Shown here: one piece after another, positions 2,627 to 47,610 of the stretch | Layout: every line of letters starts with the position of its first letter | Position numbering within the stretch: position 1 is the stretch's first letter | NCBI GenBank assembly: GCA_944371605.1 | Contig: CALVXU010000030.1 | Coordinates: 116,187 to 180,186, forward strand | Length of the DNA stretch: 64,000 bases | DNA from: an uncultured Bacilli bacterium | GTDB taxonomy: Bacteria > Bacillota_I > Bacilli_A > RFN20 > CAG-288 | Direction: 5' to 3' | Translations under genes and position numbers: made by a program | Notes under the pieces: generated by a model | Told to the model about the DNA's origin: nothing | The model's database searches: none | The model's input: only the letters and a program-made list of their open reading frames with translations

Positions 2627-2639
2627 TTTTTTATACAAG

Positions 2640-5012: not shown

Positions 5013-5026
5013 AGGAGAAGGCACGA

Positions 5027-29349: not shown

Positions 29350-31887
29350 CTAATACAATCTGATATTCATGCCTGTTTCAGTGATCATAGATTTCGAAAC
29401 ATCGATTTCAAAAGATACTGTTTGACCGACTTGCAATGACTCATCCACTTTCACATAGACATATTTATCTGAAGATTGCAATTTGATTTTAGCAAACAAT
29501 GCTGACTCGTAATCGAGATTATCGACAACAGTCCCTTTTATAGAATTAGTCGAATCGCTCATGTGGTAAGCGTCATGAGGGACTTCAACTTTGAATTCTT
29601 TGCTGAACACTCTAGTGCCTAAACCTTGAATCAATTTATTTGAAATGATGTCTGACAACAAAGCGAAACAATCGTTTTCAATTTTAAAGAAAAAGACTAA
29701 CGATGCCCTTTCGATAGCATCTTTACGCTTGGATTCCAAAATCTTTAAACGCTTCACATGCTCTTTTAACAAAGATTTTTCACCATGAACTCGATAGTTA
29801 TACTCTTTTTTCTTCTCGTGAATCTCTTTCTTTAAAAGAGAGATTTTTCTTCTTGTAGAAGCGTTCAATGAAGAGATTTTTGCTTCATAGTCCATCGTAG
29901 CGCTATTGATGGCTAAATTTAAGGTATTCTCTTTTTCAGATTGGAAATTATCTTTAAAGATATGATATTCATCGCTGCGCCTTTTAAGAGCGTCTTTGTC
30001 CTTATTATTCTTTTTGAACTCATTAAACTCTTTGATCTCATCGGCCTTTTTTTGATCGAACAAATGATCATTATCAGATTTGAGTTTCTTCTTTAAAGAT
30101 GTGAAATTTGACTTGAGTTCAGCGCTTTGCTTTTTAGCTTCAGCTTTGATTTCTTTAATCTCTCCTCTATTTTTATCGATGAATTCTTTTAACTGTTGTT
30201 CGAGTTTAGATTTTTCTTCATCAGATAAATCAGTGAGAGCCAGTCTTTTCTTTTCATACTCATTATTTTCTAACAGGATTTGCGCATCCATAAATTGAGT
30301 AGCAGATTTGATCTTTTCATCTCTCAATTTGGTAAACTCTGCAAAATCTCCCTTAGAAATAACAGTTTGGTAATTATAGAAAGAAGCCTTATATTCATCG
30401 TATTTTTGAATTGGTTTGATGATATTATCATCATCTTTTTTAACAGTTATTTTTGAATAATCAAAAGAGAGTTTAATTTCTGCTTCAACATCCAAATCCT
30501 CGTTTAGCACCGCGAAGAAAACACGATTATTCACTAATAAATGATATAGTTTAAAACCGTTGATAACCTCTTTATCAATGACTTTTACACATACGCCATT
30601 TTCATCGATTCTAAAGGCGTCAACTGGGATGATGAGACTAGCTTTTTCAACATGCTTGCCTTGTAAAACTAAAGGTAAAGCAAAATGCATACCTAAAAAT
30701 TCGAGTTCTTTATCTGATAATCGTGCATCAAAAACATTTTCTTTTGGAAGTCTTGGCGTGATCGTTTCTTCAGTTACTTTATCAAAGAAGTAGGTGTGAG
30801 ATAAATCAAATTTTATACAGATGGTTTCATTTGGTTTAAGCTCATTGATTCTATCGGACTTGATGATGATTTGACCTTTTTCAGAGACGATTGAATCATC
30901 CTCATCGCTTAATGTAGCATAGATTAAAGTTTCTGATCCTAATTCTTCAAATCTCGAAATCTTTGCTTTGATAGCTAAGTCATCATCTTTATCAGTCAGA
31001 TGAACATGTTCACATCTGATTCCTAAGATTATCGGATGTTTTCCATCTAAATAATCAGGATTGACTTTGATCAATCGATTATATGGGACCTTCAATTGCA
31101 CATTTTCATTTTTAAACTTGATGAGAATATCATCGTTTTCTTTCAATAATGTGCAATCAAAGAAATTCATCTGTGGTGTTCCGATAAATCCGGCGACGAA
31201 GATATTAGATGGATAATCATAAAGATTTTTAGGTGTATCTACTTGTTGGATGCGGCCAGCTTTCATGACGACCACACGATCGCCTAAAGTCATAGCTTCG
31301 ACTTGATCATGAGTGACATAAATAAACGTCGTCTTCAACTTTTGATGTAATTTGGCGATTTCAGTCCTCATCTGGGTTCTAAGTTTAGCATCGAGATTAG
31401 ATAAAGGCTCATCCAGTAACATGACCTTTGGATCTCTCAAAATGGCTCTACCTAATGCGACGCGCTGCCTTTGACCACCAGACATCGCACGAGGCTTACG
31501 ATCCAAATAATCTTTGATTCCTAAAATCTCACTTGCCCATAAAACTTTTTCCTGAATCACATCATCAGGAACATGGCGAAGCTTTAAACCAAAAGCCATA
31601 TTTTCATAAACAGTCATATGAGGATATAGAGCATAGTTTTGAAAAACCATCGCTATATCTCTATCTTTTGGTTCGACATCATTGACGATTTGATTATCGA
31701 TATATAATTCGCCCGCAGTGATTTCTTCTAATCCAGCAATCATTCTTAAAGTCGTGGACTTTCCGCAGCCAGATGGACCGACGAAAACGATGAATTCCCC
31801 ATTTTTAATATCCAATGAAACATCATTAACAGCTTTTGTTCCATTAGGATAAACCTTGTAAATGTGTTCGAGTTTTAAACTTGCCAT
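29350..31887 (-). CDS. Sugar ABC transporter ATPase (MsmX/MalK type) with long coiled-coil extension
   Basis: The protein has 845 residues, against about 370 for MsmX, MalK or UgpC. Residues 1-240 are a canonical ATPase: Walker A GPSGCGKST, Q-loop, signature SGGQRQR, Walker B VMLLDEP and the switch His in THD. TOBE/OB-like regulatory domains follow to about 370, and a second OB-like segment runs to about 500. Then comes a highly charged Lys/Glu-rich helical region of about 200 residues (about 510-715) predicted to form a coiled coil. A final OB-like domain (about 755-845) resembles a TOBE unit, as if the coiled coil had been inserted into the regulatory domain. It energises the MalFG-type permease encoded upstream. 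The extension might mediate dimer regulation or cytosolic anchoring. That is conjecture. Confidence 0.9.
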   Translation of the reverse strand: MASLKLEHIYKVYPNGTKAVNDVSLDIKNGEFIVFVGPSGCGKSTTLRMIAGLEEITAGELYIDNQIVNDVEPKDRDIAMVFQNYALYPHMTVYENMAFGLKLRHVPDDVIQEKVLWASEILGIKDYLDRKPRAMSGGQRQRVALGRAILRDPKVMLLDEPLSNLDAKLRTQMRTEIAKLHQKLKTTFIYVTHDQVEAMTLGDRVVVMKAGRIQQVDTPKNLYDYPSNIFVAGFIGTPQMNFFDCTLLKENDDILIKFKNENVQLKVPYNRLIKVNPDYLDGKHPIILGIRCEHVHLTDKDDDLAIKAKISRFEELGSETLIYATLSDEDDSIVSEKGQIIIKSDRINELKPNETICIKFDLSHTYFFDKVTEETITPRLPKENVFDARLSDKELEFLGMHFALPLVLQGKHVEKASLIIPVDAFRIDENGVCVKVIDKEVINGFKLYHLLVNNRVFFAVLNEDLDVEAEIKLSFDYSKITVKKDDDNIIKPIQKYDEYKASFYNYQTVISKGDFAEFTKLRDEKIKSATQFMDAQILLENNEYEKKRLALTDLSDEEKSKLEQQLKEFIDKNRGEIKEIKAEAKKQSAELKSNFTSLKKKLKSDNDHLFDQKKADEIKEFNEFKKNNKDKDALKRRSDEYHIFKDNFQSEKENTLNLAINSATMDYEAKISSLNASTRRKISLLKKEIHEKKKEYNYRVHGEKSLLKEHVKRLKILESKRKDAIERASLVFFFKIENDCFALLSDIISNKLIQGLGTRVFSKEFKVEVPHDAYHMSDSTNSIKGTVVDNLDYESALFAKIKLQSSDKYVYVKVDESLQVGQTVSFEIDVSKSMITETGMNIRLY

Positions 31888-31901
31888 AAAATATCCCCTC
31901 T

Positions 31902-33509
31902 CTAGTACTCTAATAATGCGATGCTATATGGTGGTAATTTCAACTCACCATTTAAATATGTCGCTTGAACATCGTTGTCTGATAATAAAACATGTTTGAC
32001 ATCTAGTTCTGTCTTATAAGATAAAGTTTGATTCATCGAAAAATTAAAGACCAATTTTATCTTTTCGTCTTCATAAGTTTTATCATAAGCCAAAAGATAA
32101 ACATCTTTATTTGAATTGACCTGTTTATCTTCTTCAGTGACTGAAATCACTCCTCTAGCTATCGATTTATAAGCATTTCTTAAAAGATTAGCTTTTTTTT
32201 GATAATTGAGAATGGAGTTTGTATCTTTGAGTTGTTCTTCAGCAGTTCCGAAATAATTCGTCTGTTTGCTACTATAAATAGGATCATCACATTCGATAGC
32301 TTCTTCTCCCCAATAATAATGGGTTCGATAATTACTATCAGCATAATCACCACCAGGATTATTGGCAGAACTCATACCGATTTCATCACCATAATAAGTG
32401 AAGTTACATCCATTACACATCGCTAATAAACCGAGCTGCATCTTCGTGCGTCCGATATCGCCTGATTGTGTGATTCTATTCATATCATGATTATCTAAAA
32501 ATGGTGCAGATACATTAGTTTCACAGTTTAGCATTTCTAATTGTCCATCCAAATATTCATCTCTCATCATACCTTCAAATCCGAAACTATTCATGATGAA
32601 AGAAGAAGGATATGCGCTTGACATCGGAAAGTAAAAGAACGAATCTATTTCCGATTTGGAATACTCTTGAATGATGCTTTTTGAATCCCAAACTTCAGCC
32701 ACCAAATATGTATCTTTAATAGATTGACACATCTTTTTAAAATTATTTAAGACCTTGATATTTTCATTCACATCATTCAAATAATAATATTTAGCTGCAT
32801 CAAGTCTAAATCCATCAACACCTAGATTTAAGTAATATGAAAATACTTCTTCAGCTAACTGATAGGCTAGTGGATTATCATAATTGAGTTCTGGCATATC
32901 AGAAGAAAAATTAGCCTCATAGTAAAAAGAATTGCCACCTGCTCGATAATATTTTTTTCCGCTTTGCTCAGCTTCTTCTAAAGTATCATAGAAAACGTAA
33001 AGTTCTGAATAGGCGCTTTCCTCATCGGTGAGCGTCTCACCATTAATCTTTTTTTGATGGGATAATAAAGCTTTTTCAAACCATTCGCAATAATAACCCG
33101 TGTGATTCAAAGGGACATCTAAAATCACTTTCATATCATGCTGATGAGCAGAATTCAAAAGCTGTTCTAAATCAGCAGTAGTCCCAAAATCTTCGTCGAT
33201 GCTGAAATAGTCATTGACATCATATTTATGATAAGAACTAGAAGCAAATATCGGAGTTAAATATAAACCAGTAAATCCTAAATCAGATAAATAGGTGATC
33301 TTAGAGGTTATGCCGTTTAAATCTCCGATTCCATCATTATCACTATCAACAAAAGAGCTGACAAATATCTCATAATAGTTGCGATATTTGTCATCGATGA
33401 CTCGCTTTGGAATTTCTTCTTCAATTATTTGGCCTTCTAGAGATGAAGAAGAGCCATCATGACAAGAAATCAAAAATGGTATTAATCCAAGAATATATAG
33501 TTTTTTCAT
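31902..33509 (-). CDS. GH13 alpha-amylase-family lipoprotein
   Basis: The protein has about 535 residues. The start is the ATG at 33507-33509 (MKKLYILGL...), overlapping the permease stop as ATGA. A longer open frame upstream is not needed and would hide the signal peptide. The lipobox is LISC. The GH13 barrel is complete: DGIGDLNGI, VPLNHTG, nucleophile Asp in GFRLDAAKY, acid/base Glu in VAEVWD, and the transition-state Asp in LDNHDMNR. It is predicted to hydrolyse starch or maltodextrin alpha-1,4 bonds outside the cell, feeding the ABC transporter encoded in the same operon. Confidence 0.93.
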   Translation of the reverse strand: MKKLYILGLIPFLISCHDGSSSSLEGQIIEEEIPKRVIDDKYRNYYEIFVSSFVDSDNDGIGDLNGITSKITYLSDLGFTGLYLTPIFASSSYHKYDVNDYFSIDEDFGTTADLEQLLNSAHQHDMKVILDVPLNHTGYYCEWFEKALLSHQKKINGETLTDEESAYSELYVFYDTLEEAEQSGKKYYRAGGNSFYYEANFSSDMPELNYDNPLAYQLAEEVFSYYLNLGVDGFRLDAAKYYYLNDVNENIKVLNNFKKMCQSIKDTYLVAEVWDSKSIIQEYSKSEIDSFFYFPMSSAYPSSFIMNSFGFEGMMRDEYLDGQLEMLNCETNVSAPFLDNHDMNRITQSGDIGRTKMQLGLLAMCNGCNFTYYGDEIGMSSANNPGGDYADSNYRTHYYWGEEAIECDDPIYSSKQTNYFGTAEEQLKDTNSILNYQKKANLLRNAYKSIARGVISVTEEDKQVNSNKDVYLLAYDKTYEDEKIKLVFNFSMNQTLSYKTELDVKHVLLSDNDVQATYLNGELKLPPYSIALLEY

Positions 33510-34423
33510 CCTTTGACTGCTCCGCCAGTGATACCTTCGACATAATATTTCTGTAACCAAAAGAACAAAATCATAATCGGAATAGCGACTACGACTCCAC
33601 CAGCACAGAAGGTCGGAAACATCTCTACTCTCTGCGTCAATGTGATCATCTGTTGTAAACCGACAGCAACTGTCATCATGCTAGGATTTCCTCCAGCGAT
33701 ATAGGATGCTGTCATAAAGTCTCCCCAAGGAGAAGTAAAAGAGATAAGAAGAGTATAAACGATGATCGGCTTAGATAAAGGCATGATGATTCTAAAGAAA
33801 ATAGTGTTCTTGTTTGCACCATCGATCATAGCTGCCTCATCCAATGATTTTGGTATCGTATCAAAGAAACCTTTAGCGATGTAATACTGCATAGCTGAAG
33901 AGGCGATATAAATCAATATCAAAGAGAAAATATTAGATTCCATATGGAATAATTGAAGAGTGAAATAGATGATAATCGTACTTAAGAAACCCGGGAACAT
34001 TCCTAAGACTAAAATCAATCTCATGATTCCTTGACGTCCTTTAAATCTCAAACGTGACAAGGCATATGAAGTTCCCAAAACTAAAACTGTTTGAATTATC
34101 ATCGTCACTAAAGAGATGACGAAAGTGTTCAAATACCATTTCCAAAACGGATAATTAGTATCCGTGAACAGCTTGACATAATTTTCAAATGTCCAAACTG
34201 GATAGCCATTAGCGATGTTTTCTTCAGTCGGGAGATAAGGCATAAAATTAGATGGCGAATATATTGATGATAATGACTGGAAAATCAAGTAAACAAATGG
34301 TATCAACCAGATGATAGAGATGATGGTTAAAAAGATATACAAAAAGATATTTCTAGTAAGAACAGCTCTTTTATGTGAGCGATAACGAGAAGTTTTTTTG
34401 CCTAAAGATAAATCTGTCATCAT
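33506..34423 (-). CDS. malG: Maltodextrin ABC transporter permease, MalG type
   Basis: The protein has 305 residues and six transmembrane helices. The cytosolic EAA loop that docks onto the ATPase is present (DEAAMIDGANKNTIFFRIIMP). It has the short N-terminal tail typical of MalG/GanQ-type permeases. It overlaps the MalF-type gene by 4 bp and the GH13 gene by 4 bp. The substrate, maltodextrin, is inferred from malQ and the GH13 gene. Confidence 0.93.
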   Translation of the reverse strand: MMTDLSLGKKTSRYRSHKRAVLTRNIFLYIFLTIISIIWLIPFVYLIFQSLSSIYSPSNFMPYLPTEENIANGYPVWTFENYVKLFTDTNYPFWKWYLNTFVISLVTMIIQTVLVLGTSYALSRLRFKGRQGIMRLILVLGMFPGFLSTIIIYFTLQLFHMESNIFSLILIYIASSAMQYYIAKGFFDTIPKSLDEAAMIDGANKNTIFFRIIMPLSKPIIVYTLLISFTSPWGDFMTASYIAGGNPSMMTVAVGLQQMITLTQRVEMFPTFCAGGVVVAIPIMILFFWLQKYYVEGITGGAVKG

Positions 34424-36000
34424 TGGAATTCCTCCTCATTTTTCACAGAATTAGAGCGGTTGTAGAAAATCAAAGAAATGACAGCTACCACTGCGAAGAT
34501 GAGCAAGCCGATAACTGAAGCGGCTCCATAATCTTTAGAATTAGAAGTGACCGTCATCTTATAAATCCAAGTGATCAGCAAATCGGTATGGCCAACGCCA
34601 GTCGAAGAAACTTGGTAAGGCACATCAGCGACAGGGTAAGAGAATGCTGGTCCGCCAGAAGTGAGCAAGTAGATAACATTGAAGTTATTGATGTTTCCAA
34701 CAAACTGAGAGATTAAATAAGGAGTAGTGACAAACAACATATATGGAAGTGTGATTTTGATATACATCTTCAATGGTGAAGCTCCATCGATACGAGCTGA
34801 TTCATATAAGTCATCTGGAATGTTCATCAAAAGACCGGAGCAGATGAGCATCGTATAAGGAATGCCTACCCAAGTATTGATCAAAATGATCATCACTTTA
34901 GCTAATAAAGCATCGGATAAAAATGGTATTCCACGCCCTGTGACTAAGCCTAAAGAAGTTAATATCCCATTGACAACACCATAATCTGAAAAGATATATG
35001 AAACTAATAAAAGAGAGATGAATTGTGGAACAGCGATTGTAGATATTAAAACCGTTCTCCAAATCTTTTTTAACTTTATTCCTTTGATATTGATGATCAT
35101 AGCCATGATCATTCCTAAAAAATAATTGGAAAATGTAGCGAAAAACGCCCAAACAAGCGTCCATAATAGTACTTGTCCAAAGACTTCTAAAAAGATGTTA
35201 TTATTGGAAGCTGAACCACTAGCGAATAACTCTTCGAAATTATATAAACCAACCCAATCAAAAAGACTAGTCGGTGTCATATGTTCAGAATTATAATTCG
35301 TAAATCCGACCAAAATCATAATGATTATCGGAATAACAGTGAAGAGAACTAGACCTGACATCGGTAAAAATAGAAGAGTTTTTTCATAACTTTTATCAAA
35401 AATATTTTTAAAAGACTCTTTATCGGAAGCTTTCTTTCCGATATAGTTCATCCTTTGCAGTTTTAAACTGTCTTTCAATTGGTTATACCACAGAAAAATT
35501 AAAATCAAAATCAAGATAAAAGTGATAGTTGAAAACAAAAGAATAGTAAATGAGTTGTCGTAATATACAGTGGTTTCGATGTCGATCAAAAAGTCTGGAT
35601 CAATCACTGTATAAGTCACACGACCTATCTGACCTAGATAAGGCAATGAGGCTAAAGAGGTCCCACCTATCAGGCACATGAACACGATGAAAAAAAGTTC
35701 ATATAAAAAATAAAAAGAGCCTCTCAAAATCTGATTTCTTGTCATCAAACCAAAACCCATTAAAATAAAAGAAATACGGGTCTTATAATCACCTTCTTTT
35801 CCAGCGTGATAAATAGAAGAAAAAACTCCTTCAGCAGATTGTTTTACTTTTCTTGTCTTACTAGGAATCCTTCTAAAGGAATCAGATATTTTTTTAGGTA
35901 AATCAAGGAAAAAATGACTGATTTTATATATTGCCCTCTGCGGTTTTGATAATGAAAGATATTCTAGCTGACTGGCCAGCACTTGTTCTCTATTATCCAT
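34420..36000 (-). CDS. malF: Maltodextrin ABC transporter permease, MalF type
   Basis: The protein has 526 residues. A basic cytosolic N-terminus (about 70 residues) precedes two or three extra hydrophobic segments and an exported loop (about 130-160), as in large MalF proteins. Then comes the core of six helices with the EAA loop (YESARIDGASPLKMYIKITLP). It pairs with the MalG-type permease. A strong hairpin separates it from the binding-protein gene and probably tunes the ratio of binding protein to permease. Confidence 0.92.
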   Translation of the reverse strand: MDNREQVLASQLEYLSLSKPQRAIYKISHFFLDLPKKISDSFRRIPSKTRKVKQSAEGVFSSIYHAGKEGDYKTRISFILMGFGLMTRNQILRGSFYFLYELFFIVFMCLIGGTSLASLPYLGQIGRVTYTVIDPDFLIDIETTVYYDNSFTILLFSTITFILILILIFLWYNQLKDSLKLQRMNYIGKKASDKESFKNIFDKSYEKTLLFLPMSGLVLFTVIPIIIMILVGFTNYNSEHMTPTSLFDWVGLYNFEELFASGSASNNNIFLEVFGQVLLWTLVWAFFATFSNYFLGMIMAMIINIKGIKLKKIWRTVLISTIAVPQFISLLLVSYIFSDYGVVNGILTSLGLVTGRGIPFLSDALLAKVMIILINTWVGIPYTMLICSGLLMNIPDDLYESARIDGASPLKMYIKITLPYMLFVTTPYLISQFVGNINNFNVIYLLTSGGPAFSYPVADVPYQVSSTGVGHTDLLITWIYKMTVTSNSKDYGAASVIGLLIFAVVAVISLIFYNRSNSVKNEEEFQ

Positions 36001-36018
36001 ACATCCCCCTTAAGCAAA

Positions 36019-36046
36019 AAGGATAGCGGAAAAATCCGCTATCCTT
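36019..36046 (-). terminator. Intercistronic hairpin between binding protein and permease genes
   Basis: A perfect 12-bp stem, AAGGATAGCGGA (36019-36030) with TCCGCTATCCTT (36035-36046), has an AAAA loop and is followed on the minus strand by TTTTTG. It lies in the 55-bp gap between malE- and malF-type genes. In many ABC operons such hairpins cause partial termination or protect the 5' message, giving excess binding protein. Confidence 0.7.
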
Positions 36047-36055
36047 AAGATAGAA

Positions 36056-37333
36056 TTATCTTGCTGTTTCAACAGTAGTATTTAAAGTTGTTAATGCTGC
36101 CTGTAATTCTTCATCTGTTTCAATATCACCCGCTTTGATTCCATCATATAAAGCTTTAGGCGAATCCCAAACACCTTGAGGAACGATGGTTTGAGCGATA
36201 GCATCAGCCGATTGATCACTGATAGCTTTGACATATTGATTGCTGGTCACTTTATCCATAGCAGCAACTGTCTTATTTGTCGGAGCAGTAGAGAAAGTAT
36301 CAAAACGATTTTCTTGAACTTCAGCACCGACTAAGTAATTAGCTAATGAATGGTCAAAAGCTAATCTAGCTGTATCACTCTTACTGACTTGAGGATTGAC
36401 ACCATATAATTTGTAGCCTAAGAAAGAACGGAGGGTCTTTGTCTCATTATCAACGGTGATGGTCGGCATTTTTAAAGCGACTAATTTATCTTTTCCAACA
36501 GCTTCTTCGAATTGAGCAGAGTTCCAAGAACCTCCGACAACTGCGCCTAAACCATTAGCTTTTGTCGGTGCTTTTAAAACCTCATTCGAACTTCCTGTCA
36601 TGACACCATCATTATTGATCAAATCACGGAAGCCTTTAGCTGCTTGTAAGCCATCTGCGGAATCATAAGTCGCATCAATGCTAGAGATATCAGTGAAGTC
36701 ATCATTCATATTAACCGTATATGAAGCGCCAAAAGTGGTCAACATCGCCATCGAATAGAAAGCTTCGCCCAAAGGATATCCGAATTTTAAGCCTGCATCT
36801 TTACAAGCAGCGATGATATCTTCAACCTTAGAAGCTTCATCTACCGACACATAGTCTGTATTGATATATAAGAAATAACCATTATCACCTGCATAAGGGT
36901 AAGCGTACATATTTTCGCCTAAAGTACCAGATTCAATAGCACCAGCGGTCATCTCTTTTGTCATCTGTGATTGGAAATTAGATGGAACACGAGCTAAAGC
37001 ACCTTTTTTAACTAAACTTAAAGTTTTATCTGAAGCAAAGGCATAAATATCTGGGGCACCAGATGCTGACCAATCAGGAACTTTAGTATCTACTTCACCT
37101 TCAGCATAGTTGACAAAGTTGAATTTTACATTAGTATAACCATTTTCTTCTTTGAAATTGTTGCATTGCTCAGTGACAAATTTTGTTTGCTCTACTGGCG
37201 AAGAAACGGTGATTGTCCAGTTGTATTTGGAGTTATCTTGGCTTGTCTTACTAGATTCTCCCCCCCCATTACAACCGGTTAACATCAATAAAGAGAGTGC
37301 TGCTAAGGAACTGATTTTTGTGACTTTTTTCAT
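36056..37333 (-). CDS. malE: Maltodextrin-binding lipoprotein, MalE type
   Basis: The protein has 425 residues. A lipoprotein signal (lipobox LTGC) is followed directly by a Gly-Gly-Gly stretch encoded by a G8 tract. The rest is a family-1 extracellular solute-binding protein: an early EEN(G)Y-type helix region, VPDWSASGAPDIYAF, the ALARVPSNF region, PYAGDNGYFLYIN, and the C-terminal helices. It delivers oligosaccharide to the MalFG-type permease. It starts behind an AGGAGG site 58 bp after malQ, with no terminator between, so malQ and malE are likely co-transcribed. Confidence 0.93.
   Translation of the reverse strand: MKKVTKISSLAALSLLMLTGCNGGGESSKTSQDNSKYNWTITVSSPVEQTKFVTEQCNNFKEENGYTNVKFNFVNYAEGEVDTKVPDWSASGAPDIYAFASDKTLSLVKKGALARVPSNFQSQMTKEMTAGAIESGTLGENMYAYPYAGDNGYFLYINTDYVSVDEASKVEDIIAACKDAGLKFGYPLGEAFYSMAMLTTFGASYTVNMNDDFTDISSIDATYDSADGLQAAKGFRDLINNDGVMTGSSNEVLKAPTKANGLGAVVGGSWNSAQFEEAVGKDKLVALKMPTITVDNETKTLRSFLGYKLYGVNPQVSKSDTARLAFDHSLANYLVGAEVQENRFDTFSTAPTNKTVAAMDKVTSNQYVKAISDQSADAIAQTIVPQGVWDSPKALYDGIKAGDIETDEELQAALTTLNTTVETAR
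37260..37267 (-). repeat. G8 homopolymer in the malE-type gene
   Basis: On the coding strand eight G follow the lipid-attachment Cys and an Asn codon. The frame is open at length eight. A change of one base would abolish the binding protein. Confidence 0.9.
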
Positions 37334-37391
37334 TCTATTTTTCCTCCTATAAAAAGTCTCAACTGCAATATTTCTTCTGATAATTTCGAAC

Positions 37392-38903
37392 TCAACAACG
37401 TCCGTAATAATGATTCAGTTCTTTTAATTTTTGACTTAACTCTTTGGTCAAATCATTTTTTCCGATACGATAAGTCCAATTATTATTGATGGTATTAGGT
37501 GTGTTAATCCTTCCGCGATGAGTTTCTAATAGCAAGTCAGGCATATTTATGATCATCAATTTAGCCTGTGATGATAAACCCAATTCTAAAATTGTTTTAC
37601 ACCATCCATCAATAGTATCATCGACTAGCTTCACACCTAACTGATAACAACTTTTATCTAGAATAGAACGCATATGTAATTTTTCTTTAGAATTCAAAGA
37701 GAGAATATAGCTACATAAAGGTTCATTATCATGCCTAGTTGAATAGACGATAGTCTGATATGGGTAATCTTCAGGCAATGGGAAATTTTCTTGGCCGACT
37801 AGTGAAAATTCGAGGACACTGATTTCAGGAACTTGTCTCTTCTTTAAAAACTCTTCAATCAAAGGAGAAGAATAACCGACATGCTCAGCGATGATTTTTT
37901 CAGATTTATCTCTCACTAGCGCATCACACATCTCTGTTCCTGGACCGGGATAAAATTCTCCATTCAGTCCGTTTTTACTACCTACCTTAAGAGAATAGTA
38001 ATTGAAGAAACCACGAAAATGGTTCAAAATAACTTGATCATAAAGACCTAGTGCAAAGTTCAAGCGATTTTTAAAGAAACGATAATCATGTTTTGCCATG
38101 TAATCGAAGTCATAGATAGGAGATCCCCAAACTTGTCCATCTGGAGAAAAACAATCAGGTGGATAACCTCCGACTTTTTCCATTTGGTTGTGGCTATTGA
38201 GCTTAAAATTCCGATGATGCTTATATACATCTATCGAATCGAAGGCGAGATAGAAAGGTTCTTCACCGATGATTTTTATCCCCTTTTCAGCAGCATATTT
38301 TTTTAAGGAATTCCACTGTTTTAAGAAGATGTATTGAGTCCAAAGATAAAACTCAACCTCATTCCAGTACTGGTGCTTAATCTTCTTAAACGCTTTGAAG
38401 GAATACTCATTGTAGCCTTTCTCAAATTTCGGCCAAGGCTTACCTTTATTAAGTTCCTTTAAGACCATAAAACAAGCATAATCGAGAAATTCATTTTTTC
38501 TGAGAAATGAAGTATATCCGCGCTGATAATCTCCACTTCCTCTTTTAAAGCGATTAAATGCTTTTTTTAGGACTTTGCTTCTGTTCGTGTAAATGAGATG
38601 ATAGTCGACTTTCCTCTCATCTTCACACCAAACATATTTTTCTAAGTCTCTTTTTTTAAGTAAGTCCTTTTCGATGAGATCATCTAAATCGATGAAGTAA
38701 TGGTTTAGTGCACGAGCACTAAAGCATTGAAATGGTGAGTCGGCAAAGGATGTCGGGCCTAGAGGAAGTATGCTCCAGTAGCTGAATCCAGAATCAGCTA
38801 GAAAGTCGATGAAGTTCTTTGCTTCTTGGCCTATTGTTCCAATTCCATAATTAGAAGGAAGAGAAAAAATAGGTAATGCAATTCCACTCGCTTTATATGC
38901 CAT
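37392..38903 (-). CDS. malQ: 4-alpha-glucanotransferase (amylomaltase), GH77
   Basis: The protein has 503 residues, the usual length. It has the GH77 landmarks: the N-terminal SLPSNYGIGTIG, the SYWSILPLGPT segment, SPFQCFSARA, IIGEEPFY, PPDCFSPDGQVWG, RFF-type helices and RHDNEPL. It disproportionates maltodextrins in the cytosol so that glucose and longer glucans can be processed. It is the first gene of the maltodextrin operon. A cre-like sequence overlaps its promoter just upstream. Confidence 0.96.
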   Translation of the reverse strand: MAYKASGIALPIFSLPSNYGIGTIGQEAKNFIDFLADSGFSYWSILPLGPTSFADSPFQCFSARALNHYFIDLDDLIEKDLLKKRDLEKYVWCEDERKVDYHLIYTNRSKVLKKAFNRFKRGSGDYQRGYTSFLRKNEFLDYACFMVLKELNKGKPWPKFEKGYNEYSFKAFKKIKHQYWNEVEFYLWTQYIFLKQWNSLKKYAAEKGIKIIGEEPFYLAFDSIDVYKHHRNFKLNSHNQMEKVGGYPPDCFSPDGQVWGSPIYDFDYMAKHDYRFFKNRLNFALGLYDQVILNHFRGFFNYYSLKVGSKNGLNGEFYPGPGTEMCDALVRDKSEKIIAEHVGYSSPLIEEFLKKRQVPEISVLEFSLVGQENFPLPEDYPYQTIVYSTRHDNEPLCSYILSLNSKEKLHMRSILDKSCYQLGVKLVDDTIDGWCKTILELGLSSQAKLMIINMPDLLLETHRGRINTPNTINNNWTYRIGKNDLTKELSQKLKELNHYYGRC

Positions 38904-39194: not shown

Positions 39195-39491
39195 AAATAA
39201 TGATAAAAAATTTAGTAACTTTGCAATTCATTTTACAATTGTATTAATTTGTCAACTATTTTGATGCTTATTTTCCCACCATTCTATTGTTTTTTTAAAA
39301 AAAATATCATTTAATTTTTCTTTCATACAAACTGTTTTAAATGTGCTCACAGTCACTTTATAATTTGACATTAGATTTATTCATATATTAAACAACTCAT
39401 AAATTTAAAAGACTAATCATGTATAATTTTCTTTGAAAAGAATTTTTTTAAAACATAAAATATCTATGACTATAAGAGCTTGGAGGTTGTT

Positions 39492-40217
39492 GTGATTTAT
39501 AAAATAGCAATCGTTGAAGATGAAGAAAACGTCATCGAACAACTGAAGACTATGCTAAAAAAATATTGGAAAGAAAATTCGATCAAAGACGAATATTTAA
39601 TTGAAAGTTTCTCTAGTGCTGAAGACTATTTGAATCAAGAGAATAAACATGAGTATGATTTATTCTTTTTAGATATTCAGATGACGGGATTAAGCGGCAT
39701 GCAATTAGCACGTGAAATTCGTAAAGCTGATGAGAATGTTTTGATTGTATTTGTCACCAATATGGTCCAATTCGCTGTGGAAAGCTACGAAGTCCAAGCC
39801 TATGATTTTATTGTCAAACCTTTGACATATAGCAATTTCTATATGCGGTTAAAGCGAATCTTAAGGCGCTTGTCTCATTGGTCAGATGATGCATTTATCT
39901 CGATTTCTACTAGATCTGTGCAACGACGTTTAAGAATTTTAGATATCATCTATGTTGAAGTGATCAATCACAATATCATTTTCCATTTGACTGGTAATGA
40001 AAAAATCACCATCAACAGCACAATGCATGAATGGGAGAAAAAACTAGAGCCATATCATTTCGTCAGATGTAATTCTTGCTATCTCATCAACCTGAGATAT
40101 GTTTCAGCTTTAAAAGGTGAATACATAATTATAAATGAAGAAGAATTACATATTTCACGATCCAAAAAGCAAAATTTCTTGTCTGAATTTGCTAAATATG
40201 TCGGAGGTAGCAAATGA
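39492..40217 (+). CDS. LytTR-family response regulator 2
   Basis: The protein has about 241 residues. I set the start at the GTG 39492-39494, because a GGAGG site (39482-39486) sits 5 bp before it. The upstream in-frame TTG at 39480 overlaps that site. The receiver domain has EDEENV, phospho-acceptor Asp61 in FFLDIQMTG, FVTNM and IVKPL. The LytTR domain contains ILDIIYVEVINHN and the RCNSCYLINLRYV block, very like regulator 1. It is coupled by a 4-bp overlap to kinase 2. It is predicted to act at the paired repeats downstream of the kinase gene. Confidence 0.93.
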   Translation: MIYKIAIVEDEENVIEQLKTMLKKYWKENSIKDEYLIESFSSAEDYLNQENKHEYDLFFLDIQMTGLSGMQLAREIRKADENVLIVFVTNMVQFAVESYEVQAYDFIVKPLTYSNFYMRLKRILRRLSHWSDDAFISISTRSVQRRLRILDIIYVEVINHNIIFHLTGNEKITINSTMHEWEKKLEPYHFVRCNSCYLINLRYVSALKGEYIIINEEELHISRSKKQNFLSEFAKYVGGSK

Positions 40218-41548
40218 TTAATTCCCTAATCGCTATCTCATTGATGACTTTAGAGCTGCTGATTTCTGAGTTTATTTTTGTCTCTTTTCTAGAAAAAAAG
40301 AAATTCTTTTGGGCACGGTTTTTAGGTGGGACAGCCATCTGTTTAGCTGCTTCAGCTTGGATTGAAATCATCTATAGTTTGATGACAGATTCTGACTTTA
40401 ATTATGGTAGTTCATCAAGTTGGGAAAATTCATTATTTAAATTTATTTATTATATTTTTATGTTCGTGATGACAATAGCAGTCATCAAGTTTTCCTATAA
40501 AGGATCGATGTGGACCATCTTGTTTTATTGTTCTGGTGGCTACGCTTTACAACATATCGCATGGAATATCACTTCTTTGATAGGTTTAATTCCCGGATTG
40601 GACAATTATCTTTCAGCTAATAACACGATAATGTACTTTATTGAAATAATAGTTTGTGCGCTTCTTTATGTCACTGTCTATCTCCTATTCATCTCTAATC
40701 GTTCAGCACCAGATTCTAATAAAGATATCCGTGGAAAAGTTATGCTATTTTTAGCGGTTATTTTTATTTGCATCGGAATATCTCGCTTGACTACTGATAA
40801 TGAAAAAAGAGACATTATATCTCATTTAGCCGAATCGATTTCTGCCATCGTTAACTGTACTTTTATTTTGATTCTTCTCTTTGATTTAACTGATAGAGAT
40901 AAAGCCAAAAATGAAGTTCAGACTATGAAGGAATTGATGCGAAGAGAACAAGAACAATACCGGCTCACGAAAGAAAACATCGATCTCATCAATATCAAGT
41001 GTCACGATTTAAAACATCAGATTCAATCCTTGAGAAAAAACGCTTCAGAGCCATATATCAAACAGGTCGAGGAAGCGGTGATGTTTTATGATTCGGTGGT
41101 AAAAACTGGAAATGATGTTTTAGATGTTATTTTGACTGAAAAATCTTTATTATGTGAAAAAAATCACATCGTATTCACATGTGTAGCACATGGCAAGGAT
41201 TTAGCTTTCATGGATGATATGGACATATATTCTTTATTCGGCAATGCTATAAGCAATGCTTTTGAAAGCGTGAGAAATATAAAGGATGAAGATAAGAGAT
41301 GTCTCTATTTAAATGTTCACACTGAAAATGGTGTTCTATCTATTCATATCGAAAACTTTTACGAAGGCATTATTCATTTTAAAAATGGTCTACCAGTGAC
41401 TGATAAAGGGGAAGATTATCATGGCTTTGGTATGAAAAGCATGAATTATATCGCTCATAAATATAATGGTTTTATGACAATCTCAGCCGAAGATGGGATT
41501 TTCAATCTCGATTTTATCTTCCCTCTAAAGGATAAAAAGATTAAATGA
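40214..41548 (+). CDS. GHKL (AgrC-type) sensor histidine kinase 2
   Basis: The protein has 444 residues. About six transmembrane helices span roughly 1-220. Then come a helical linker, the phospho-acceptor motif CHDLKHQ (His264), N-box LFGNAISNAFESV and G-box GFGMKSMN. The catalytic half is strongly similar to kinase 1, including the DVILTEKSLLC region, whereas the membrane halves differ. This suggests a duplicated system sensing a different signal. No signal-peptide gene is nearby. Confidence 0.92.
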   Translation: MINSLIAISLMTLELLISEFIFVSFLEKKKFFWARFLGGTAICLAASAWIEIIYSLMTDSDFNYGSSSSWENSLFKFIYYIFMFVMTIAVIKFSYKGSMWTILFYCSGGYALQHIAWNITSLIGLIPGLDNYLSANNTIMYFIEIIVCALLYVTVYLLFISNRSAPDSNKDIRGKVMLFLAVIFICIGISRLTTDNEKRDIISHLAESISAIVNCTFILILLFDLTDRDKAKNEVQTMKELMRREQEQYRLTKENIDLINIKCHDLKHQIQSLRKNASEPYIKQVEEAVMFYDSVVKTGNDVLDVILTEKSLLCEKNHIVFTCVAHGKDLAFMDDMDIYSLFGNAISNAFESVRNIKDEDKRCLYLNVHTENGVLSIHIENFYEGIIHFKNGLPVTDKGEDYHGFGMKSMNYIAHKYNGFMTISAEDGIFNLDFIFPLKDKKIK

Positions 41549-41565
41549 ACATCTTTACAAGTTAT

Positions 41566-41627
41566 TTACGAAGCTATCTAAGTCATTTACGCAACTTCAT
41601 TGAAAAATAATTTTAGCATGTTTTAAT
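41566..41627 (+). promoter_or_regulatory. Predicted LytTR operator (21-bp-spaced direct repeats) and promoter, cassette 2
   Basis: Direct repeats TTACGAAGCT (41566-41575) and TTACGCAACT (41587-41596) are 21 bp apart. They lie within a longer similarity of AAGTTATTTACG with AAGTCATTTACG. Three bases later comes TTGAAA (41600-41605), a 16-bp spacer and TTTAAT (41622-41627). Position, spacing and core match the site behind kinase 1. Confidence 0.65.
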
Positions 41628-41664
41628 TAAGAAAAAGCCAAAGTGTAAATAACGTGGAGGAATT

Positions 41665-41703
41665 ATGACACAAAAGAGCTTTAAAAGGAGAAAAGCATGG
41701 TAA
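41665..41703 (+). CDS. Possible 12-residue leader peptide overlapping the GH3 4 start
   Basis: An ATG with a well-placed GGAGG (41656-41660) opens a 12-codon frame, MTQKSFKRRKAW, whose last codons and TAA overlap the GH3 start (ATG at 41697) in another frame. The GH3 gene has its own AAAGGAG site inside this small frame. It could couple translation of the large membrane enzyme to the leader, or be accidental. I see no homologue at the other GH3 loci. Confidence 0.35.
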   Translation: MTQKSFKRRKAW

Positions 41704-44700
41704 AGAAAAGAAAAGCCTTTAGTTTGCTGTGGCTAATTTTGACGATTGTATTTGCTGTCTTAACCGTCATTTTTATTGTCGGTTCTGCAATTGCTAATAC
41801 ATATTCAGCAGCTTTGCACGTTTTTTTCAACACTAGACCATACGAGTTAGTACAAATTGAAAGTGATGAAAATGTCGACACTGAATACTTTAAATCATCA
41901 TTTGTCACACAAAGTGGAAATTACGACGATGAAGCGCTTTGGGACTATGATACTCGTGTAGCAGAACAGATCATGAACGAGAGTACTGTCATGTTATGGA
42001 ACAATTCTGATGCCCTCCCATTAGAAAAAGGTTCCAGCGTCTCTCTATTCAGCAACACTTCAGTAAACATGGTCTATACTGGTTCAGGTTCAGGTGCACT
42101 TAATACCTCTAATGCGGTAGATATGAAAACTGCGTTAGAAAAGTATGAGTTTAAAGTCAATGACGTTCTTTGGGATTTTTATTCGACGGGAGCTGGTAGT
42201 AAAAAAGCTGGCTATGGAATCACACAAGTCGGTAGTGGTGATATGTCCAATTTTACTCTTAATGTCAAAGAAGTCCCTTGGAATGTCATTCAGAGTAATA
42301 ACGTATCTTCGTCTTTCAGTGAATTCAATGATGCTGCTATCTTTGTTTTAGGAAGAAGTGGTGGTGAGGGAAAAGATGCCTTATATACTGGTAACCCTGA
42401 TACCATCGGTGGAAATTATCTAGAATTGACTGAAGTTGAGAGAGATGTCTTAAATCAACTAGTCAAAGCAAAGGAAGATGGTGTTTTTGAAAAAGTTATT
42501 TTATTGATCAACTCTGCTAACCCTATGCAGATGAAACTCATATCTGAATTTAATGATACCATCGACGCGTGTTTATGGGTCGGCGTTCCTGGCGTCGCCG
42601 GAACTCCTGGTATCGCTAAAGTCCTTTGCGGAGAGGCTAATCCATCTGGTAGATTGATAGATACTTATGTCTATGACAATGGTTCTGCTCCTGCAATGAT
42701 GAATTTTTATTCCAAAAGTTGGACAAATGCTAGCGATTATTCATTAGGCGGATTACAACGTCCATATATGATTTATCAAGAAGGTATTTATATCGGCTAT
42801 CGTTATTATGAGACTCGATATGAGGACGCTGTTCTCAATCAAGGAAACGCTACCTCAGCTGCTGGAACTTATGAAAGTTTAGATGATTGGGATTATACAG
42901 AAGAAGTGACTTATCCATTCGGATTTGGGCTTTCCTATACTGACTATGAATTCAGTGAATATGATGTGAAGAGACTAGAAGATGGTGACTATGAAGTCAA
43001 AGTGACTGTCACTAACGTCGGTGATAAAGCCGGTCGTGAAGTAGCACAAGTCTATTTGCAAAAGCCATATACAGAATATGATAAAACTCACGGCATTGAA
43101 AAATCCGCTGTCGAGCTTGTCGGATATGCAAAAACCAAGATTTTAGATCCTCAAGAATCTGAGACATTGACCATCATCGTCGATGATCAGGACTTAAAAA
43201 CATATGATGCTGATGGATATAAGACTTATATTCTTGAAGATGGTACATATCACTTCGCAATCGGTGATAATGCACATGATGCTTTAAATAACATTTTGGC
43301 TAAAAAGAGAAATGATGGCATAGATATTGACTCTTCAAAAATGGTTGATGTCTATGGTGAACCTACTACTGGCAATGCCGATTTCGTCAAATCATTCGAA
43401 TTAGAATTAGACACTGAGAAATATTCGACTTCTGTTCATACTGGCTATGAGATCACAAATCAATTCGATTTTGCAGATATCAATCGCAGCGGAGAAGCTG
43501 GAGATCAAAAAGTCACTTATCTTTCTAGAAATGATTGGAATGGAACTTATCCAAAAGAATATTTCAAACTCGCGCTCACAGATCAAATGTATGATCATTT
43601 AGCTTATAAAAGAGATTTACCACAAACAGCCGCGGATGCTGAGGCGTGGTACAAAGAAAATGCAGATATCTTAGATTCCGATGGAAAGATTAAATATAGT
43701 CAAGATAATGGTCTTTCATTGATTCAAATGAAAGACTTGCCATTCGATGCTCCAGAATGGGATCTCTTGCTCGATCAAATGTCATGGGAAGAGCAAGCAC
43801 TTCTCTGTGCAAGAGGATATCACTCCACTGCCGAAGTCAGTTCTATCAATAAACCTGGAACAGTTGACGAAAATGGTCCATGCGGTGTTTCAGTCACTTT
43901 TTCTTCTTTGAATTCAAGAATGGCAATGGGGTGGCCTAGCGCTTGTAATAGAGGAGCCACTTTTAATACAAAGCTCAATGAGTTGATGGGAAAATGTTTC
44001 GGAGAAGATATGCTTCATGCTAACGTCAATGGTTGTTTAGGATTCGGCCTCAATATGCATAGAACTGCTTATGGAGCTCGTAACTTTGAATATTATTCTG
44101 AAGACTCTTTCCTCTCTGGTGAAGCGTGCAAATATGAGACTATCGGCGCTCAATCAAAAGGTGCTAATATTCAAGTTAAGCACTTCGTGTTAAATGATTT
44201 TGACACCATCAGAAATGGCACAAGCACTTTCGCTAACGAACAAACGATCAGAGAAATCTATTGTTCACCATTTGAAACTGAATTCACTGAAGGCGGTGCT
44301 TGGTCAACAATGGCTTCAACTGCTAGAATCGGAAATGAATGGGCTGGTGGTTGCTACAATCTGATGACCAATGTCTTAAGACGTGAATGGGGTTTCTTAG
44401 GCTATGTCAGCTCAGATTACACCGCTAATAGCCGTCTAGATAACAATACTTATATCGGCATTCAAGCCGGATGTGATACTTATGACGCTTCCGAATTCAA
44501 CGAAACACAATATGATTCTGTTAAAGGTAATCCAATCTTTGAATACTGCCTAAGAATCTCTAGCAAACGCATCTGTTATGCTGTTTTACATACCAGCGCT
44601 ATGAATGGCATTGATAGTTCAACTAAAGTCGTCACTGTTAATGCTTGGTGGCAAAATGTCCTCATCGCTATTCAAGTCGTCTTCGGAGTTGCAACTTTAG

Positions 44701-44801
44701 CTTTTGCTGGTCTCTTGATTTTAAGCATATTTAGTGCTAGGAAACTCGCAAAAGAAAATATCACAAATGAAACGAGTCAAAATATTGAGGAGGTGAAATG
44801 A
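41697..44801 (+). CDS. Membrane-anchored GH3 glycosidase 4, reversed domain order
   Basis: The protein has 1034 residues. An N-terminal membrane helix (about 11-35) leads into the GH3 C-domain, which starts less typically (NESTVMLWNNSDALPLEKG) and has candidate acid/base Glu224 (GRSGGEG). The FnIII-like domain (PFGFGLSYTDY) and the barrel follow, the latter with VKHFVLND and nucleophile Asp907 in SSDYT. A C-terminal membrane helix (about 985-1010) and a short polar tail close the protein. It is closest in style to the broken GH3 2 (shared GSGSG, GRSGGE and ETRYED-VLNQGNA features). It is the first structural gene after two-component system 2 and is followed by two lipoprotein genes with a 4-bp overlap. 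Predicted surface exo-glycosidase, sugar unknown. Confidence 0.92.
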   Translation: MVKKRKAFSLLWLILTIVFAVLTVIFIVGSAIANTYSAALHVFFNTRPYELVQIESDENVDTEYFKSSFVTQSGNYDDEALWDYDTRVAEQIMNESTVMLWNNSDALPLEKGSSVSLFSNTSVNMVYTGSGSGALNTSNAVDMKTALEKYEFKVNDVLWDFYSTGAGSKKAGYGITQVGSGDMSNFTLNVKEVPWNVIQSNNVSSSFSEFNDAAIFVLGRSGGEGKDALYTGNPDTIGGNYLELTEVERDVLNQLVKAKEDGVFEKVILLINSANPMQMKLISEFNDTIDACLWVGVPGVAGTPGIAKVLCGEANPSGRLIDTYVYDNGSAPAMMNFYSKSWTNASDYSLGGLQRPYMIYQEGIYIGYRYYETRYEDAVLNQGNATSAAGTYESLDDWDYTEEVTYPFGFGLSYTDYEFSEYDVKRLEDGDYEVKVTVTNVGDKAGREVAQVYLQKPYTEYDKTHGIEKSAVELVGYAKTKILDPQESETLTIIVDDQDLKTYDADGYKTYILEDGTYHFAIGDNAHDALNNILAKKRNDGIDIDSSKMVDVYGEPTTGNADFVKSFELELDTEKYSTSVHTGYEITNQFDFADINRSGEAGDQKVTYLSRNDWNGTYPKEYFKLALTDQMYDHLAYKRDLPQTAADAEAWYKENADILDSDGKIKYSQDNGLSLIQMKDLPFDAPEWDLLLDQMSWEEQALLCARGYHSTAEVSSINKPGTVDENGPCGVSVTFSSLNSRMAMGWPSACNRGATFNTKLNELMGKCFGEDMLHANVNGCLGFGLNMHRTAYGARNFEYYSEDSFLSGEACKYETIGAQSKGANIQVKHFVLNDFDTIRNGTSTFANEQTIREIYCSPFETEFTEGGAWSTMASTARIGNEWAGGCYNLMTNVLRREWGFLGYVSSDYTANSRLDNNTYIGIQAGCDTYDASEFNETQYDSVKGNPIFEYCLRISSKRICYAVLHTSAMNGIDSSTKVVTVNAWWQNVLIAIQVVFGVATLAFAGLLILSIFSARKLAKENITNETSQNIEEVK

Positions 44802-45562
44802 TGAGTGCGTTAAGCAATCTTAAACGTCTATGTAAATTCAGCTTTTCTTTCCTTTTCATCTCTTCCGCTTTGCTTTTTTCAAGCTGTAAATCTGATCAAA
44901 ATGGCCCCATAAATTCTGGCGCCCATGTCGTTGATCCGATTCCGATGGGCGGCGAAGAAGTTCTTGATGATGGCGGACAAATCAACCATTCCGATCCGAT
45001 AAAAGTCACTACCGGTGTGAAATTTAAGAAGGAGAGAAGAATCGTCTTAGGATTAGATGATGATAAGTATACTTTGGAAGGAGGCGCGAAGATTGAGGAT
45101 TGGGCCGGTGCACCAGTTCATCGAATCAAATTGACTAACACTGCACAAAGCATCACTTTCCGCCTAGATTTCTCTAAAGTAGAAGACAAATCCAAAGTTG
45201 GTTGTATGATGACACTCATCCGTTCGAGAGCCAATATGACTGTTCAAGTTTCTCTGAATCAAGAAGACTGGACTGAGATAGGTTATCCAGAAAGATCGGC
45301 TTTCTCCACCTCAAATATCCATTGCAATTATGCTGAACAAGTCCACGATTTAAGAAATGCTGGATATACGTTGAATGATAAAAATCTCTGGCAATTCTAT
45401 TGGAACTTAGGCGAATATGTCGACGACACAGGAATCATCTATTTAAGAGCAGGCTATTCGAATGAACATGCGGATATCTTAAGCGATAAAGGTGTCGGTA
45501 CTGACATCATAGACTATATCAGCTACTTCGAAAGTCTAGAATATGAGTACGCATATCTATAA
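44798..45562 (+). CDS. Lipoprotein with one beta-rich carbohydrate-binding-like module
   Basis: The protein has 254 residues. A lipoprotein signal ends at FSSC (lipid Cys about 30), then a Gly/Asp-rich linker of about 45 residues. The single domain (about 78-250) is homologous to modules in the next two reading frames. It has the common pattern GGxKxxDW, ITFxLDFSKVEDKSKVG, a Q-V-S/E-V-S-x-D/Q-x-x-x-W strand, and G-x-D-I-I-D-x-I-x-Y-x-x-S-L-E near the end. This jelly-roll-like layout suggests a new or divergent CBM. The gene overlaps the GH3 stop. Two adjacent ATGs are possible starts, and the second (44801) is better spaced from GGAGG. Confidence 0.8.
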   Translation: MMSALSNLKRLCKFSFSFLFISSALLFSSCKSDQNGPINSGAHVVDPIPMGGEEVLDDGGQINHSDPIKVTTGVKFKKERRIVLGLDDDKYTLEGGAKIEDWAGAPVHRIKLTNTAQSITFRLDFSKVEDKSKVGCMMTLIRSRANMTVQVSLNQEDWTEIGYPERSAFSTSNIHCNYAEQVHDLRNAGYTLNDKNLWQFYWNLGEYVDDTGIIYLRAGYSNEHADILSDKGVGTDIIDYISYFESLEYEYAYL

Positions 45563-45585
45563 AAAGAATAAAAGGAGTTAAAACA

Positions 45586-47058
45586 ATGCTGAGAAAAAAT
45601 AAAAATTTAAAACTCATCAACTTAGCAAGCTGTTTTTCATTGATTTTATTGGCTGGTATGTTCACATCATGCACTGATGGGACTTCTACAAGTCAAGCAA
45701 CACAACCCGGTGTTTTAGAAAATATAGAAATAACTACTATTCCGACAACTACCACTTATTATGAAGGCGATTTGTTCTCTAATCATGGTATGGTTGTCAC
45801 CGCTTATTATGACAATGATTTCTCACAAGAAGTCACTGACTATACTTGGTCACCTTCCGGTCCTTTGACTGCAGAAGATACAATAGTAACCATCTCTTAT
45901 ACAGAAAATGAAGTGACCAAAACTGCTGAACAGGAAATAAACATCAAAGCGGCACCAGGAAAAGTAGTCGGCATTGATATCGTCACACCTCCGGATAAAA
46001 CCGTATATACAGCTGGAGAAACTTTTGATAAAACAGGTATGAAAGTAGTGACAGTCTTAGATAAAGATACAGTCGAAGGCGAAGATATCACAAATAGTAT
46101 TTCTTACTCGCCTAGTGGAGCCTTGACTACTGATGATACTGAAATAACCATTTCATATAAACTAGGAGACGATGTATTCGAAGATACACTACCTATAACA
46201 GTTAATGAAGGCACAGCAATCATCACTTCAGGAGCTGTCACTTATTCTGGAAAGCATCAAATAGTCATCGATCCAGATTTGGTCGGTGAAGAAGGTGAAG
46301 GCTATACTTTAAGCGGTGGAATGAAGACCAGGATTTGGGATTATAACGGCACATATAAAGATTCTCCATTTGGAAGAATGCAAGCGGATGGAGCTGGTAA
46401 ATATGTGACTTTCGAATATGATTTTTCATCTTTGGATGACGTTTCTAAAGTCGGTTTTTCCGCTAATATGATCGGAACTAGAGCTAGAACTTTAATCGAA
46501 GTGTCAACTGATAACCAAGAGTTTGTCACCATCGGTTACTCGGATGATTCTTCAAGAGGAATTAATAATTGTTCTGACTATCATTCCGATTATAAACAGC
46601 TCGTCACTTCTTTAAGAGGCTTTGAAGTCGGCGATTCTCATCTTTATAACTACTTTTGGTCATTAGGCGAATACATGGGTGAAAGCAAAAAAATCTATGT
46701 TCGTTTCGGATATACAGACGAATATCAAAACAATCTTGAAAGCCAAGCTGTCGGAGCTGATGTCATCGATAATGTTTGCTTCTATGACAGTCTCGAAATA
46801 GCTGAAATTGATCGGATTGAAATAACTAAGATGCCAAACAAAACCTCTTATTTTGTAGGTGAAAACTTCAATAGCAATGGTATGGAAGTCACCGCATATT
46901 TTAAAGGAATGGATGAAGGACTAGTCATCAATGATTACACGATTTCACCATTAACAATCACTAGTGAAACAACTGAAATCACAATCACTTATCGTGTTTC
47001 GGGTGTGACTAAAACTACAACATTACCGATCACTGTCAGTGAAGCGATCATTAAATAA
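45586..47058 (+). CDS. Ig/CBM-like surface lipoprotein (main part of a gene split by a stop codon)
   Basis: The protein has 490 residues. A lipoprotein signal ends at FTSC. Big_3-type Ig domains lie at about 44-122 and 124-208. A beta-rich module (about 210-405) of the same family as the lipoprotein before it follows, then a third Ig domain (about 406-487). Translation ends at a TAA (47056-47058). The frame continues without a break for another 184 codons into a further module, which strongly suggests one original protein of about 674 residues with Ig-Ig-module-Ig-module order. As read, the protein lacks its last module but is still a plausible surface lipoprotein. Confidence 0.8.
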   Translation: MLRKNKNLKLINLASCFSLILLAGMFTSCTDGTSTSQATQPGVLENIEITTIPTTTTYYEGDLFSNHGMVVTAYYDNDFSQEVTDYTWSPSGPLTAEDTIVTISYTENEVTKTAEQEINIKAAPGKVVGIDIVTPPDKTVYTAGETFDKTGMKVVTVLDKDTVEGEDITNSISYSPSGALTTDDTEITISYKLGDDVFEDTLPITVNEGTAIITSGAVTYSGKHQIVIDPDLVGEEGEGYTLSGGMKTRIWDYNGTYKDSPFGRMQADGAGKYVTFEYDFSSLDDVSKVGFSANMIGTRARTLIEVSTDNQEFVTIGYSDDSSRGINNCSDYHSDYKQLVTSLRGFEVGDSHLYNYFWSLGEYMGESKKIYVRFGYTDEYQNNLESQAVGADVIDNVCFYDSLEIAEIDRIEITKMPNKTSYFVGENFNSNGMEVTAYFKGMDEGLVINDYTISPLTITSETTEITITYRVSGVTKTTTLPITVSEAIIK

Positions 47059-47610
47059 GGCGCACATGATATCATGCTTGAAACCGATACTGATAAATAT
47101 GTTATGAATGGGTCATTGAAAGATTGGTCGAATAACGGCTTTACTTTCAAACGTTTTCGCTGCGATTCTGCCTCGGAAAACATCACTTTCACACTTGATT
47201 ATTCAAAGCTTGAAGACAAATCAGCAATCGGTGTAGGTATCAACCTCATCGCTTCTCGACAAAAAGCAGTGATTGAAGTATCGACAGATGGTAGTGATTG
47301 GGTTGAACTAGGACATATAGTCAAAGTGACTGACGGGAGTCGCGAAGATGATGGTAGAGATGCCACTATGATTTGCGACTACTCAGAAAAAGTGACTTCA
47401 TTATATGGTTCAACTGTCAGTGATAAAAATTTCATCTGCTGCTATTACAATCTATCTGAATACTTAAGTGCTGAAAATGAAGACGGTATCATTTATATCC
47501 GTGGTGGCTTTAATGCAAACTACAGCGAAGCCGGTACTGGTAATGTCGGAGCTGATATCATAGCAGGTATCACCTATTATGATAAACTTCAAATCGCTGA
47601 TAATATATAG
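47059..47610 (+). pseudogene. Detached C-terminal module of the preceding lipoprotein
   Basis: This is in the same frame as the lipoprotein at 45586, separated only by one TAA. It encodes a module matching the two before it (GSLKDW, ITFTLDYSKLEDKSAIG, VIEVSTDGSDWVELG, GADIIAGITYYDKLQI). An internal ATG at 47074 has no ribosome binding site, and its product would have no signal peptide. It would therefore only be useful if the stop is read through or is a sequence error. Confidence 0.75.

Follow-up and report, generated by a model that had tools for sequence, protein, structure and literature searches.

The window, a 64,000-nucleotide stretch of DNA, contains a pair of short direct repeats in the 148-bp gap between a histidine kinase gene (40214–41548) and a GH3 glycoside hydrolase gene (41697–44801). 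This locus raises the question of whether the repeats are a binding site for the LytTR response regulator encoded two genes upstream of the hydrolase, and whether this regulator and that of a second locus in the window could act on each other's promoters, as a sequence-only reading had proposed.

Architecture of the locus and of its putative operator

The regulator gene (39480–40217, plus strand) encodes a 245-residue protein composed of a receiver domain (Pfam Response_reg, 2.4e-18) and a LytTR DNA-binding domain (LytTR, 1.8e-14), both matches lying over the cut-off, and its product is the predicted binder of the repeats. The kinase gene, on the same strand, overlaps it by 4 bp and encodes a 444-residue sensor histidine kinase with approximately six N-terminal membrane segments, as judged by hydropathy, and a GHKL ATPase domain (Pfam HATPase_c_5, 5e-20) carrying the motif CHDLKHQI. 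The receiver, the LytTR domain, and the paired kinase gene make 39480–41548 a LytTR response regulator two-component system. A PDB sequence search returns mostly receiver-domain relatives, plus ComE. The predicted target, also on the plus strand, is a GH3 enzyme of 1034 residues (Pfam Glyco_hydro_3_C, 1.7e-25; Fn3-like, 3.2e-12; Glyco_hydro_3, 3.1e-11) in which the domain order is permuted, with the C-terminal GH3 domain first, and in which hydropathy places membrane segments at both the N and C termini. The rest of the probable operon (44798–47610, plus strand) comprises a lipoprotein-like ORF (44798–45562), a Big_3 protein (45586–47058), and a related ORF (47074–47610). These three lipoprotein-like or secreted ORFs are 254, 490, and 178 residues long; the product of the first is 31–35% identical to both others, and a Pfam search of the three finds no family except one Big_3 domain.

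Direct reading of the gap places TTACGAAGCT at 41566–41575 and TTACGCAACT at 41587–41596, 21 bp apart from start to start, followed by TCA, the −35-like hexamer TTGAAA (41600–41605), 16 bp, and the −10-like hexamer TTTAAT (41622–41627), all on the plus strand. The repeats thus stand as they had been described, 21 bp apart and 3 bp before TTGAAA/TTTAAT. The best-matching repeat lies 5′ of that register, GTTATTTACG and GTCATTTACG being identical at 9 of 10 positions. Expressed as 9-bp elements, half-site 1 is TTATTTACG (41562–41570, plus strand; the same element as TTACGAAGCT, which reads further 3′) and half-site 2 is TCATTTACG (41583–41591, plus strand), an assignment based on this repeat match and on a motif model built by expectation maximization (EM) over 39 loci. 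A 12-bp spacer separates the two, giving the 21-bp period, and a further 8 bp separates half-site 2 from TTGAAA, a spacing that fits published LytTR promoters.

Published LytTR operators consist of two 9–11-bp repeats with 11–13-bp spacers (PMC4847170). In the pln promoters, 9-bp repeats with a 12-bp spacer lie directly upstream of the −35 element and are bound cooperatively by a dimer (PMC2714321), and in the LRS operons of Streptococcus mutans, repeats in a 9-12-9 arrangement lie 4–11 bp before the −35 element (PMC6193735). The geometry at the given locus is the same: TTATTTACG and TCATTTACG fall within the published repeat and spacer lengths, and the pair lies immediately upstream of the promoter −35.

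The chance of such a repeat at a single locus is P = 0.012 when lag 21 is fixed beforehand and 0.25 when any lag from 10 to 40 is allowed; because these values are only moderately unlikely, one locus alone is no proof. The bare pattern TTACG-N16-TTACG occurs three times in the 1.43-Mb genome, which is not above a reversed control. These sites are the present locus, the equivalent place at another LytTR locus outside the window (the C2 locus), and the interior of an 810-residue coding ORF; the last (C23:5943) is set aside as an operator on account of its coding position. In addition, no orthologue of the given locus is identifiable in the genomes searched, the best regulator matches being about 39–42% identical, and the case for its own operator is therefore drawn from its resemblance to other loci.

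Recurrence of the repeat across related loci

A set of 77 non-redundant regulator–kinase loci was assembled, mostly from the same genus and with a few from its order. For each lag, the best 10-mer self-match was taken in a 135-bp stretch that spans the kinase stop codon and continues beyond it, with dinucleotide shuffles as the control. At 39 loci the kinase gene is followed, after a gap, by a gene on the same strand (gap loci). Among these, lag 21 alone is strongly outlying (z 9.9), with a mean match of 7.31 versus 6.02 in the shuffles. Matches of at least 8 of 10 are observed at lag 21 in 15 of the 39, versus an average of 2.2 for other lags; at the others the repeats are degenerate or missed. 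None of 36 loci without a same-strand gene across a gap reaches 8 of 10. Removal of the seed loci leaves a z of 7.7, and outside the genus the lag-21 z is 4.1 in 12 loci linked to GH3 or Big_3 genes and 0.6 in 11 unlinked ones. A control inside the kinase genes also gives a lag-21 excess (z 4.8 versus shuffles, 2.9 versus other lags), which we attribute, as an interpretation, to homologous coding sequence with codon periodicity.

The bipartite EM model, which allowed lags of 20–22 and contained no self-similarity term, assigns lag 21 a weight of 0.74 and describes the half-site as CCANTTTTGCCA, which averages over the many regulators covered by this single model. At the given locus the model places its boxes at TTATTTACGAAG and TCATTTACGCAA. 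When loci are aligned on half-site 2, promoter information not having been used in the fitting, a −10-like hexamer is found 27–30 nt past the half-site 2 12-mer at 15 of 30 loci, versus 2.2 in other windows (z 6.5, circular-shift p 0.0005). The hexamer TTTAAT at 41622–41627 falls within this genus-wide −10 position.

The second locus of the window (541–8176), referred to here as the sister locus, encodes a LytTR response regulator (541–1263) and a GHKL kinase (1260–2618), both on the plus strand and assigned by domain matches. Its repeats, TTACGAAATT (2640–2649) and AGACGAAATT (2661–2670), are also 21 bp apart, and the motif model assigns its operator to CAAGTTACG and CCTAAGACG with a 12-bp spacer (2636–2665, plus strand); the second half-site is without the TTACG core. 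The operator precedes a Big_3 gene (2754–5012) and then a GH3 gene (5027–8176). Directly after the latter, 8269–9993 encodes an Endonuclease I domain protein with a weak match to a hyaluronate-lyase N-terminal beta domain.

Alignment of orthologous loci, which had been named as the check on the repeats, finds them retained for the sister locus and for a third TTACG locus. Sister orthologues are L084, from the same genus (regulator 79%, kinase 86% identical), and L188, from another family (regulator 57%, kinase 60%, Big_3 66%, gene order unchanged), and both keep the operator, in the form of GTTACGAAAT followed 21 bp later by another ACGA box. The C2 locus, the third TTACG locus, and its orthologue L090 keep TTTACGAC and TTTACGCC. 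In this L020/L090 pair, the half-sites (23 of 24 positions) have changed less than the remainder of the gap (71 of 101); in the pair formed by the sister locus and L084 they are no better conserved (19 of 24) than the remaining intergenic region (82 of 102). A further locus from outside the genus, the LytTR-GH3 locus L213, encodes a regulator 42% identical to the given one and has TTAACTTACG and TTAAAATACG 21 bp apart after the kinase, with GH3 downstream. These repeats carry TACGAC and are the nearest independent match to the given operator.

Very probably, then, the element is a direct repeat that binds a regulator and lies a short distance before a promoter, with a spacing and position that are common far beyond the two loci. 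The argument that a shared core, spacing, and position at two loci made chance unlikely thus survives in part: spacing and position exceed chance over 39 loci, but two loci were insufficient, and the core is absent from one half-site.

Alternative readings and the specificity of each operator

That the repeats arose by chance in AT-rich intergenic DNA would be in keeping with the single-locus probability when the lag is left free and with the control-level frequency of the bare TTACG pair. At the level of the class, however, this reading is already contradicted, because lag 21 alone is outlying over 39 loci and again in the set from outside the genus, the −10 position is fixed, and orthologues conserve the repeats; we regard it as highly improbable. 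It is also very unlikely that the repeats bind a repressor or some other factor instead of the adjacent LytTR regulator. Such a factor could be the single LacI-family protein encoded in the genome (L175:2140–3204), for which the best NCBIfam match is CcpA, below the cut-off of that model. A cre-like palindrome, TGWAARSSNTTWCA with up to two mismatches, lies beside the LytTR repeats at 22 of 39 gap loci versus 4 of 38 controls; examples are found at L016, L020, L021, and L023 and at 2612–2625 of the window. At the given locus, the scan yields a weak and uncertain cre-like element, TGAACATCTTTACA (41547–41560, plus strand), with two mismatches to TGWAARSSNTTWCA; in the corresponding place, the C2 locus has a stronger one. 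The cre-like element is, however, a separate inverted repeat at different positions, whereas the 21-bp direct repeat has LytTR geometry, was sought and found beside LytTR genes, and differs between loci along with its own locus.

The last property bears on the proposed cross-regulation, in which the two window regulators, and possibly that of the C2 locus, would recognize each other's operators as PlnC and PlnD share theirs, a precedent of two similar LytTR regulators with shared binding (PMC2714321). Consistent with such a pair or regulon, TTACG is present in three of the four window half-sites and at the C2 locus; the given locus and the C2 locus stand at the 98.5th percentile of half-site similarity, with kinases 44% identical; and a clade of the three TTACG regulators and that of L084 is not rejected (p-AU 0.587). 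The regulator tree is poorly resolved, however, and does not show this clade either. Half-sites are more alike within a locus (6.77 of 12) than when re-paired across loci (5.31 of 12; p 0.0005), and the operators are therefore locus-specific. The two window loci reach only the 87th percentile of between-locus half-site similarity, with LytTR identities of 0.38–0.41, and across loci a Mantel comparison of LytTR identity with half-site similarity finds no relation (r 0.056, p 0.27). In genome scans with pattern searches allowing three mismatches, the only perfect match to each window operator is that operator itself, and three-mismatch matches to either are not more numerous than in the control. 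The statement that four half-sites fit one consensus does not hold, as one of the four lacks TTACG and half-sites follow their own locus, and cross-regulation of the two window loci as first put forward is left unsupported. We consider it unlikely; a separate regulator for each operator seems to us more probable than recognition across loci. The main target of each regulator is most likely the operon beside it, and the more plausible candidates for cross-talk would be the given locus and the C2 locus rather than the two window loci.

Proposed mechanism and relation to known systems

Very probably, the repeats at 41562–41591 form a tandem LytTR operator of the canonical type, through which the regulator, encoded two genes upstream, would drive the GH3 operon. 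In the proposed mechanism, the membrane kinase (40214–41548) would sense a signal and phosphorylate the regulator (39480–40217), which would then dimerize, with one monomer on each half-site. The bound regulator would assist RNA polymerase in initiating at the weak promoter that lies 8 bp further on, activating rather than repressing it, and would thereby switch on the gene for the membrane-anchored GH3 enzyme together with the presumably co-transcribed genes for the surface proteins that follow.

Similar to this operator, the tandem LytTR operators of PlnC/PlnD of Lactobacillus plantarum, AgrA (P2/P3), HdrR/BrsR, and YpdB have two direct repeats of about 9–10 bp a few bp upstream of a −35 element and are bound by a LytTR regulator, and those of pln and HdrR share the 12-bp spacer and 21-bp period. 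The main differences are that the known targets are bacteriocin, virulence, or transporter genes, in place of the membrane-anchored GH3 found here, and that the half-site sequence varies here between loci within one genome. Agr quorum-sensing systems also pair a LytTR regulator with a GHKL kinase of multiple membrane segments and have different targets. AgrB and AgrD are not encoded with the present pair: no AgrB or peptide gene is observed at the locus, and AgrB has no match in the whole genome (about 90% complete), which makes a processed-peptide signal of the Agr type unlikely. A LytTR regulatory system (LRS) combines a LytTR regulator lacking a receiver domain with a membrane inhibitor protein (PMC6193735), whereas the given regulator has a receiver domain and its partner is a kinase. 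A gpPUL unites a polysaccharide-degrading enzyme, a transport system, and a regulator in one locus (PMC5320581). As here, gpPULs have a local regulator and a carbohydrate-active enzyme, and gpPUL Ros-7 has a LytTR response regulator and a kinase (PMC5320581). A domain search finds no sugar transporter family among the genes at 39480–47610, and the locus, with an enzyme and a regulator but no transporter, thus falls outside the gpPUL definition. A complete-looking alpha-glucan operon on the minus strand (29350–38903) encodes a MalK-type ATPase, an alpha-amylase family enzyme, two permeases, a binding protein, and a GH77 enzyme.

The linkage of LytTR and GH3 genes is not new, because the parts of the 2010 report on Butyrivibrio proteoclasticus considered here describe three cases of LytTR regulators, each near a secreted GH3 that carries a membrane helix at its C terminus (PMC2914790), which is the same linkage and the same membrane-anchored GH3 type as here. 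In those parts no operator is described for the pairs, and the three cases compare with 14 LytTR domains in the present 1.43-Mb genome. In related genomes of the genus, the given regulator has up to 17 matches. The genome contains approximately 31 matches to the given permuted, membrane-anchored GH3; in the window, such genes lie at 5027–8176, 20791–23208, 23496–26456, and 41697–44801. Within the genus, permuted GH3 genes are numerous in ten of 15 genomes and absent from the other five, which also have few LytTR regulators. At most gap loci one of the first two downstream genes encodes a GH3, usually membrane-anchored, the enzymes having the C-terminal GH3 domain first, and the arrangement of regulator, kinase, and GH3 recurs at dozens of loci.

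These observations suggest, tentatively, that the genus has built about a dozen parallel sensor-enzyme modules, mostly a LytTR pair with its own 21-bp operator and a membrane-anchored GH3, under shared cre-like carbon control, as a Gram-positive parallel to the many polysaccharide loci with linked sensors found in Bacteroides. The modest novelty lies in how many sensor-operator-GH3 modules one genus contains and how regular they are. For an unstudied two-component family in uncultured bacteria, sequence alone yields a likely target, operator, and promoter, and dozens of loci connect LytTR sensing with a GH3 enzyme at the cell surface. The paralogous regulator–operator pairs within single genomes offer material for the study of how LytTR domains choose their DNA and how paralogues are insulated from one another.
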